From Parapedobacter pyrenivorans (GTDB taxonomy: Bacteria; Bacteroidota; Bacteroidia; Sphingobacteriales; Sphingobacteriaceae), in NCBI RefSeq assembly GCF_014636865.1, contig NZ_BMER01000002.1:556292-620291 (forward strand): a stretch of 64,000 nucleotides of DNA, read 5' to 3'. A program made the position numbers and the translations under genes. Below, piece by piece: positions 42,851 through 43,232 of the stretch (within the stretch, counting starts at the first letter, position 1; each line of letters starts with the position of its first letter). The notes beneath the pieces are model-generated. The model was not told the origin of the DNA, did no database searches, and saw only the letters and a program-made list of their open reading frames with translations.

Positions 42851-42966
42851 TGGTTTATAAAGAAGTGGCGAGAGACTGGCTCAATGACCCACTGGCAACC
42901 ATCCGCAAAAGGGGGAAAAGGTGCCAATTCCTGTCCCAATTGATATTCGTTGGGAGCATATAAAAA
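42851..42966 (+). promoter_or_regulatory. SAM-I riboswitch (S-box)
   Basis: The conserved core is clear: AGAAGTGGCGAGAGACTGGC at 42861-42880, then AATGACCCACTGGCAACC (42883-42900) and GGTGCCAATTCCTG (42920-42933). P1 is TTTATA (42854-42859) with TATAAA (42959-42964); P2 closes GTGG (42865-42868) with CCAC (42889-42892); P4 is TCCCAA (42934-42939) with TTGGGA (42950-42955). SAM-I binds S-adenosylmethionine and shuts down methionine genes. It lies between the promoter and a 45-codon leader ORF, which starts 10 bases after P1. No T-run follows P1, so control of leader translation or of a later structure is more likely than simple termination. Confidence 0.9.
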
Positions 42967-42973
42967 TAAGACT

Positions 42974-43111
42974 ATGACTACTTATTCAGCAAACAACAAT
43001 CATTATTTGGCTACCCGAAGGTTCCCCCGTGGCCGTACCATCGCTACTATCGCCGCCACTCAATACGAGCGAATGCGTTGCGGGATGACGCATCTATGTT
43101 ATTGCTGTTAA
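42974..43111 (+). CDS. Candidate cysteine-rich leader peptide upstream of metY (45 aa)
   Basis: ATG at 42974, TAA at 43109. The 45-residue product is basic in the middle (LATRRFPRGRT) and ends MTHLCYCC, with three of its last four residues cysteine and a fourth at position 36. The frame starts 10 bases after the SAM-I P1 stem and ends 121 bases before metY. Its end overlaps three alternative hairpins: ATGCGT/ACGCAT (43073-43078/43088-43093), CGGGAT/ATCCCG (43081-43086/43111-43116) around the cysteine codons, and GTTGCGGGA (43077-43085) with TCCCG and CAAC (43128-43139, bulged). This is the layout of translational attenuation by cysteine. No ribosome-binding site is obvious, as usual in this phylum. 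Confidence 0.55.
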   Translation: MTTYSANNNHYLATRRFPRGRTIATIAATQYERMRCGMTHLCYCC

Positions 43112-43139
43112 TCCCGAAAACGTGCTGTCCCGGTGCAAC
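43073..43139 (+). promoter_or_regulatory. Mutually exclusive hairpins over the leader cysteine codons (attenuator-like)
   Basis: The strand 43077-43086 can pair with 43111-43116 (CGGGAT/ATCCCG, 6 bp) or with 43128-43139 (GTTGCGGGA against TCCCG-GTG-CAAC, 9 bp with a 3-base bulge), while ATGCGT/ACGCAT (43073-43078/43088-43093) excludes both. The cysteine codons lie at 43097-43108. No U-run terminator follows, so if it acts, it probably controls translation or RNA stability. Confidence 0.4.
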
Positions 43140-43232
43140 CTGCTGTTCCATACGGTAGCTATACCATATCGCCACATCTCCGTTTAATACGTACGATTAA
43201 TCTATCATAAACAAATAACAAACAATTCAATC

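Follow-up and report, generated by a model that had tools for sequence, protein, structure and literature searches.

What is the purpose of a short open reading frame (ORF) ending in cysteine codons when it is placed between a SAM-I riboswitch and metY, and does the metY operon respond to cysteine supply as well as to SAM? The question is raised by a locus in the window, the whole 64,000-nt stretch of Parapedobacter pyrenivorans DNA analysed here, for which a sequence-only reading had proposed possible dual control. As a rule, riboswitches and leader-peptide attenuators are regarded as alternatives to each other, and the rules of attenuation in Bacteroidota are poorly mapped. From comparison with related loci, a two-input leader RNA that turns metY-metX-hom on only when SAM and cysteine are both low is considered the probable, though far from assured, explanation.

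Organization of the Locus

All features of the locus lie on the + strand. A likely promoter was read by eye at 42767−42798; it comprises a TTTG box (42767−42770), which we take to be an upstream promoter element, then 20 nt and the box TATATTTG (42791−42798). The latter was assigned on the basis of the flavobacterial sigma-A element TAnnTTTG, as given in the available text of PMC9723704. The aptamer follows about 50 nt from this promoter at 42852−42966, and its full-length match to Rfam RF00162 (77.5 bits; gathering score 44.4 bits) bears out the earlier recognition of a SAM-I riboswitch, SAM binding itself being predicted. Two SAM-I sites were found in the host genome, this one and a second before metE; the latter is not followed by such a leader ORF.

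The leader ORF (42974−43111; MTTYSANNNHYLATRRFPRGRTIATIAATQYERMRCGMTHLCYCC) has its ATG at 42974, 7 nt past the aptamer and not 10 bases as first counted, and its TAA at 43109−43111; the 45 codons ending in Leu-Cys-Tyr-Cys-Cys are present as had been read, and the location given for the cysteine codons is correct. The candidate regulatory codons TGT TAT TGC TGT (Cys Tyr Cys Cys) occupy 43097−43108, with position and frame kept in relatives, and an in-frame CGA-ATG-CG motif (Arg-Met-Arg) shared with other leaders lies at 43070−43077. A C-rich gap (43112−43232; 34 C and 16 G of 121 by base count) separates the leader from metY, of the O-acetylhomoserine sulfhydrylase type (43233−44537; PF01053), followed by metX, of the homoserine acetyltransferase type (44574−45635; an alpha/beta hydrolase whose fold and place fit the name given earlier), and hom, encoding homoserine dehydrogenase (45661−46854; PF00742, PF03447). 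The nearest named relatives of the window's MetY are from Sphingobacterium, at no more than 85% identity. An RNase P RNA of bacterial class A is found further along the window on the − strand (48671−49063; 262 bits).

Elsewhere the genome carries a CysK-like gene next to a CysE-like one, a CBS-like gene and four full-length PF01053 paralogues, the first three scoring below curated cut-offs so that their names are tentative; by this gene content homocysteine may therefore be made either from sulfide or through cystathionine.

The P1 Helix and the Leader Start

P1 of the aptamer pairs TTTATA (42854−42859) with TATAAA (42959−42964) and thus contains A-U pairs only. Its 3' strand is part of an A-rich stretch immediately 5' of the leader ATG, and this stretch would hold the ribosome-binding region of the leader. 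In the P1 composition comparison, 109 ORF-followed aptamers, which also take in ORFs without a cysteine tail, have a P1 of nearly all A-U (TTTATA in 98, TATAAA in 79) with a mean of 0.30 G/C in 12 positions, against 3.48 of 12 in 48 metE/metH aptamers, where P1 is mostly CTTATN and GATAAG. In one relative (G026) the leader is missing and metY has its own ATG 10 nt 3' of P1; the layout reads as if leaders elsewhere had replaced the regulated gene downstream of P1. The proposal that P1 could govern access to the leader start codon agrees with the place of the 3' strand, which abuts the leader start region, an agreement of position only. Since an A-U-only P1 stands directly 5' of the leader start, SAM should block leader translation by preventing ribosome entry onto the leader.

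Distribution of the Riboswitch-Leader Unit

A search of 60 genomes, the host included, with RF00162 gave sites in 54, and all 106 listed sites were read; nine of these as fetched lacked the typical core letters and were used on the strand as given. A cysteine leader was defined by a first ATG 0−20 nt past the aptamer, an ORF of 10−80 residues and two or more Cys among its final ten. Such leaders are found at 22 of 26 metY-like and three of eight metX-like sites, compared to none of 10 metE and none of 38 metH sites, which serve as an internal control of the same riboswitch class and have any such ORF, regardless of Cys, in only one and three cases, respectively; the four hom-like, two CGS-like, three NifS-like and 15 unclassified sites also have none. 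The proteins encoded at two of the 26 metY sites (G035:C1:2946549 and G011:C35) share only 37% identity with the window's MetY and probably represent other PF01053 enzymes; of the remaining 24 sites, 22 have the tail, one ends in RMCRD (G006) and one is the leaderless G026.

Two further sets were drawn around MetY itself. Of 590 named MetY loci found, 80 were kept; the riboswitch is present at 73 of these, the ORF at 72 and the cysteine tail at 54. Among 73 loci from the window's genus (nine genomes) and a class-wide draw the figures are 42, 37 and 31, and since locus rows are related by descent these counts are not independent. In the class draw, 68 of 295 genomes gave MetY at E 1e-100 or better, with upstream regions from 65 of the 73 listed matches; the other eight matches and L197, a second PF01053 gene (41%), were left out. 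The first-ATG rule yields ORFs of three residues at L046 and L213, and at L046 the usual RMR-ending ORF comes next.

On the MetY tree (FastTree, 118 rows, loci up to L226 only, serving for distribution only), the cysteine tail occurs in Sphingobacteriaceae, Hymenobacteraceae, Flammeovirgaceae and further families. Within the window's genus it is present in eight of nine members, and the ninth (L195) ends in RMCRD; Spirosoma ORFs are short and without a Cys tail. The ORF and its terminal cysteines, whose loss in relatives would have spoken against the sequence-only reading, are conserved, except that in the genus Sphingobacterium the ORF is kept in the same place but mostly has an Arg-Met-Arg end: 14 of 18 named loci end in RMR or RMC, and four have at least two Cys. 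The MetY of Flavobacterium salmonis (L049) and F. anhuiense (L050) falls inside Sphingobacterium on the tree, which suggests transfer; neither a riboswitch nor a Cys leader was found upstream of metY at these two loci. Because the pairing of riboswitch and Cys leader recurs in several Bacteroidota families, the metY operon is probably under joint control by SAM and cysteine supply, as judged from this recurrence.

Codon Signature of the Leaders

The signature was read from 123 riboswitch-leaders with distinct ORF DNA; riboswitch loci without an ORF of 10−60 residues (one of 73 named, five of 42 others) fall outside this set. The leader starts 6 to 11 nt past the aptamer in 113 of the 123. Cysteine makes up 410 of the 984 residues in the last eight positions (42%) versus 102 of 3433 upstream of these (3%), and methionine 141 of 984 versus 81 of 3433. 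At least two Cys are found among the last 10 residues of 94 leaders, and at least two Cys or Met in 112, leaving 11 with fewer; the exact C-terminal residue is Cys in 63, and the window leader ends CYCC-stop. Both in-frame cysteine codons are used in the last 10 codons (TGT 259, TGC 187), and TGY makes up 36% there in frame versus 14% and 1.4% in the two out-of-frame registers. In comparison with relatives, the ORF and its cysteine tail are far beyond chance, and the leader pattern resembles control codons rather than a conserved protein.

A second feature is the CGAATGYG motif, found in 35 of the 123 leaders and in frame in all 35. Arg codons directly before ATG in leaders are CGA in 40 of 50 cases, versus 44 of 1000 Arg codons in metY, where CGA is the rarest Arg codon. 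In Sphingobacterium the motif closes the ORF, mostly as CGA ATG CGN TAG and then TCGT; many of these loci have GACGAC or a similar sequence downstream. The CGA-ATG motif overlaps a hairpin arm in the window's genus; elsewhere it does not.

Other cysteine-run ORFs were sought as well. The strict pattern TGYTGYTGYTRA, which the window's own CYCC leader fails to match, gave no further cysteine-run leader in the host genome among 30 viewed of 31 sites; 29 of the 30 lie in open frames longer than 120 codons and one (L317) has no ATG-started ORF. The pattern TGYTGYTGYTGYTRA is present in 105 of 121 family genomes, with control columns mostly 0 or 1 and many sites within genes; the 70 sites viewed, 40 of them chosen from among the matches listed, comprised five metY leaders and seven other candidate short ORFs with at least four Cys at the end (L272, L280 and L290 at TonB plug genes; L336 and L360 at PhyH genes; L285; L361). 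Five of these seven precede TonB-dependent receptor or PhyH genes, and no SAM-I was found at the four that were scanned (L272, L280, L285 and L290). SAM-I itself precedes a TonB-dependent receptor gene (Pfam) at L022 (G020) and a gene with a similar start at G032:C1; ORFs ending in RMCMELCCSS and SMHCC lie 132 and 102 nt past the respective aptamers.

Hairpins and Termination in the Window

Three competing hairpins had been proposed around the cysteine codons, and the inverted repeats are all present: CGGGAT (43081) with ATCCCG (43111), ATGCGT (43073) with ACGCAT (43088), and GTTGCGGGA (43077) with TCCCG (43128) and GCAAC (43135). Only the second stands out, and within the genus. The hairpin ATGCGT(T)/(G)ACGCAT (43073−43093) ends 3 nt 5' of the Cys codons and has p 0.043 in the window; its stem score summed over nine genus members gives p 0.001 versus shuffles, with four of nine passing 5% singly, and its variable pair is C-G in L188 and L192 and T-A in L190, L193 and L194. 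Outside the genus the hairpin was not found in 26 leaders with the CGAATGYG motif (p 0.68), and the motif was rejected as a general hairpin arm. The other two proposals are at chance and were rejected as switches: CGGGAT/ATCCCG has p 0.11 in the window and reaches 5% in none of the nine genus members, and pairing of the same strand with the region past the stop (43112−43150) has p 0.30. Folding of 43060−43210 as a whole is no better than that of shuffles (z −0.35).

The genus hairpin is also flagged as terminator-like (eight pairs, three of them G-C, then CTATGTTATT), with two sites found versus 1.5 expected. No terminator-like site lies in the gap 43112−43232, and the sole one on this strand is this weak hairpin inside the ORF. 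With no gap terminator and two hairpins at chance, the off step is inferred mainly from relatives; the termination decision would be placed in the gap, and because no clear intrinsic terminator was found, termination in the window is considered to be possibly Rho-dependent. The 5' arm of the genus hairpin overlaps CGA-ATG and its 3' arm stops just short of the Cys codons, so that a ribosome stalling at the latter would keep 43073−43093 open.

Downstream Signals at Related Loci

A terminator-like hairpin of −12 kcal/mol or better is found at 19 of 109 riboswitch-leader loci versus 6.25 in shuffles; a common terminator for all riboswitch-leaders was rejected on this count, and at most loci the off step is therefore putative. 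Pairing of the tail with downstream RNA was likewise rejected as a general rule, as it reaches 5% at 17 of 109 loci, and z falls below −1.645 at 19 loci for the tail compared to 12 for the preceding 33 nt used as control. Masking of the metY start by the leader was rejected too: when the tail is held open, the predicted accessibility of the metY start changes by more than 0.2 at none of 99 loci, and in the window it goes from 0.81 to 0.64. Past the leader stop, C exceeds G by 0.079 of length at 107 loci versus 0.021 in 43 metE/metH gaps, a hint of the composition that Rho would favour; together with the predicted accessibilities this excess would favour termination over start-site masking.

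Of 19 Mucilaginibacter-type leaders, 15 have a hairpin just downstream with z below −1.645; in eight of the 19 the first arm of this hairpin is predicted to pair instead with the Cys codons, ahead of a U-rich tract, and these modelled alternative pairings are of the attenuator kind.

metY Leaders Without a Riboswitch

Thirty-seven metY upstream regions have no riboswitch (L101, with less than 200 nt upstream, was dropped from 38). A Cys/Met-rich ORF of a quality reached by at most 5% of dinucleotide shuffles occurs in 15 of the 37, where about two are expected; 12 of the 15 were picked by eye for hairpin study (L108, L238 and L103 were left out; for L226 the reading begins at an inner ATG). 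Each of the 12 carries a terminator-like hairpin unmatched in its 15 shuffles, and the hairpin ends 52−78 nt 3' of the leader stop in nine, about 295 nt in two and inside the ORF in one. The ratio of Met to Cys is 168:478 in 98 riboswitch leaders versus 52:53 in these 12, a comparison in which selection by Cys/Met score may inflate both letters. The Rfam scan of 14 whole riboswitch-less loci gave no SAM-I; at one of the 14 a SAM-II riboswitch was seen in antisense (L252:47−153, − strand, 49.2 bits), upstream of a metY with a Met/Cys leader.

By their codons and hairpins, most of the riboswitch-less leaders look like classical attenuators sensing methionine and cysteine. As Met and Cys codons occur together in these terminator-type leaders, scarcity should turn metY on, and probably does so for the operon; the methionine arm of leader control may have passed to the riboswitch.

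Proposed Mechanism and Alternatives

In the proposed mechanism, SAM would close the weak, A-U-only P1 and hide the ribosome-binding region of the leader, so that no ribosome enters. When SAM is low, a ribosome would enter the leader and reach the terminal Cys codons (in relatives, Met codons too); with charged Cys-tRNA scarce it would stall there, and premature termination before metY would be averted. In the window's genus the stalled ribosome would also keep the hairpin at 43073−43093 open just behind it. With plentiful cysteine, or without ribosome entry, transcription would end before metY, possibly through Rho in the window and intrinsically in some relatives. The comparison supports the conserved unit, its spacing, the codon-level cysteine tail, the distinct P1 and the genus hairpin; from these we infer the SAM gating of the leader, the stalling, its polarity and the termination. 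Dual control by SAM and cysteine, as first suggested, is partly supported, by the conserved riboswitch/Cys-leader unit before metY and by the position of P1, but not by the two hairpins that are at chance.

A polarity opposite to that of the proposed mechanism is unlikely. Here, stalling at Cys codons under shortage would keep metY off and spare sulfide for cysteine synthesis, and a finished round of leader translation would permit expression; the adjacent putative CysK-like and CysE-like genes would compete for sulfide, and the window has no clear terminator to fix the direction. Against this, the riboswitch-less leaders mix Met with Cys codons before a strong terminator-like hairpin; methionine is the end product, so metY should be turned on when it is short, and a shortage of cysteine would be read by this RNA in the same sense. 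In eight of 19 Mucilaginibacter leaders the Cys codons are predicted to form the 5' strand of a hairpin with a U-rich tract behind it, which also speaks against a reversed polarity. The mixed leaders suggest that scarcity of either amino acid means on, and the earlier view of cysteine as a sulfide competitor that the leader senses is therefore disfavoured.

About as improbable is coupling without sensing, in which leader translation run by the riboswitch shields the RNA from Rho or feeds reinitiation at metY, and the cysteines carry no signal. The available text on riboswitch-controlled upstream ORFs in Mycobacterium describes action with Rho or via reinitiation (PMC12810186, PMC11260477), and the Sphingobacterium leaders retain the ORF with few cysteines. 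An ORF free of sensing, however, is not expected to have its last eight residues so enriched in cysteine, in several families and with both codons.

It is very unlikely that the leader product is itself a small Cys-rich protein with a metal- or redox-binding function, made with the operon by happenstance. The frame is open and under mild purifying selection, as pN/pS from 19 independent pairs is 0.70 for the body and 0.44 for the last 10 codons, a modest constraint; yet neither body sequence nor length (13−53 aa in the 123 leaders) is conserved, even inside the genus, the window and L189, its closest relative (MetY 95% identical), already differ in the body, and no family match was found in Pfam (E up to 0.1) or NCBIfam (E up to 1). 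A chance frame behind an ordinary SAM-I riboswitch is the least credible reading and can nearly be dismissed, for although short ORFs with two cysteines can arise randomly and two of the three window hairpins are at chance, the codon counts and the contrast of 22 of 26 metY with 0 of 48 metE/metH sites contradict it.

If the two-input leader RNA does operate, it would constitute a conserved unit in which a riboswitch controls access to an attenuator, a compact logic gate for two metabolites. Such a natural AND gate, a riboswitch gating an amino-acid-sensing ribosome in response to low SAM and low cysteine, could have been born by division of labour; by this tentative account, which is given slightly less than even credence, metY leaders once had mixed Met/Cys codons and an intrinsic terminator, a SAM-I aptamer took the methionine arm, and the leader kept mainly Cys codons while the terminator was often lost. 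The AND gate would keep direct sulfhydrylation for a shortage of both end products, and the Met:Cys contrast between leaders with and without a riboswitch would provide a concrete case of one RNA sensor replacing another.

Comparison with Known Systems

No description of a SAM riboswitch followed by a cysteine leader was recognised in the open-access library searched. In the textbook S-box unit, what is switched is a terminator or the gene's own start. The window aptamer matches this SAM-I (S-box) family, RF00162, over the full length of the model; it differs from the textbook units in that the next start codon is that of the leader ORF and P1 is A-U only.

The actinobacterial cysteine leader peptides, in the available text of Seliverstov et al. 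2005 (PMC1262725), are encoded by short ORFs that lie ahead of sulfur genes and carry a run of Cys codons close to their stop, features that the window shares; they have no conserved terminator hairpin, and Rho was suggested by the authors. In that text they precede cys operons or cbs with no riboswitch mentioned, unlike the window, where a SAM-I aptamer and the ORF precede metY/metX. The polycysteine sORFs of Canestrari et al. 2020 are leaderless according to the title, as cited in PMC13236596; these mycobacterial ORFs and the window share a Cys run adjoining the stop but not the leaderless start, as the aptamer lies 7 nt upstream of the window ORF. The uORFC-8-2 motif before cysS in Rhodobacterales contains tandem Cys codons with predicted ribosome-mediated attenuation (PMC8632094); as far as its description is available, it has a terminator with a U run and no riboswitch, whereas the window has a riboswitch and no clear terminator.

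Riboswitch control of upstream ORF translation is described for Mbox-rv1805A (PMC12810186) and the ppe2 B12 switch (PMC11260477) of Mycobacterium, and for ppe2 translation of the upstream ORF is essential for the downstream gene (PMC11260477); the available text of both papers describes no amino-acid-sensing codon run, and these switches have other ligands and belong to another phylum than the window's. The SAM-II riboswitches of Sinorhizobium metA and metZ combine translational control with a terminator (PMC9373788); like the window they place a SAM riboswitch before a methionine gene, but they are SAM-II, alphaproteobacterial and, in the text available, described with no cysteine leader. In the phylum of the window, 5' UTR ORFs or leader-peptide attenuation are considered likely for Flavobacterium psychrophilum (PMC9723704) and Bacteroides thetaiotaomicron (PMC7366714), the accessible parts of these papers naming no cysteine leader or SAM-I combination. 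Like a ribosome-mediated attenuator, the window has a short ORF with clustered pathway-related codons before the operon, conserved by codon, its translation and stalling being predicted.
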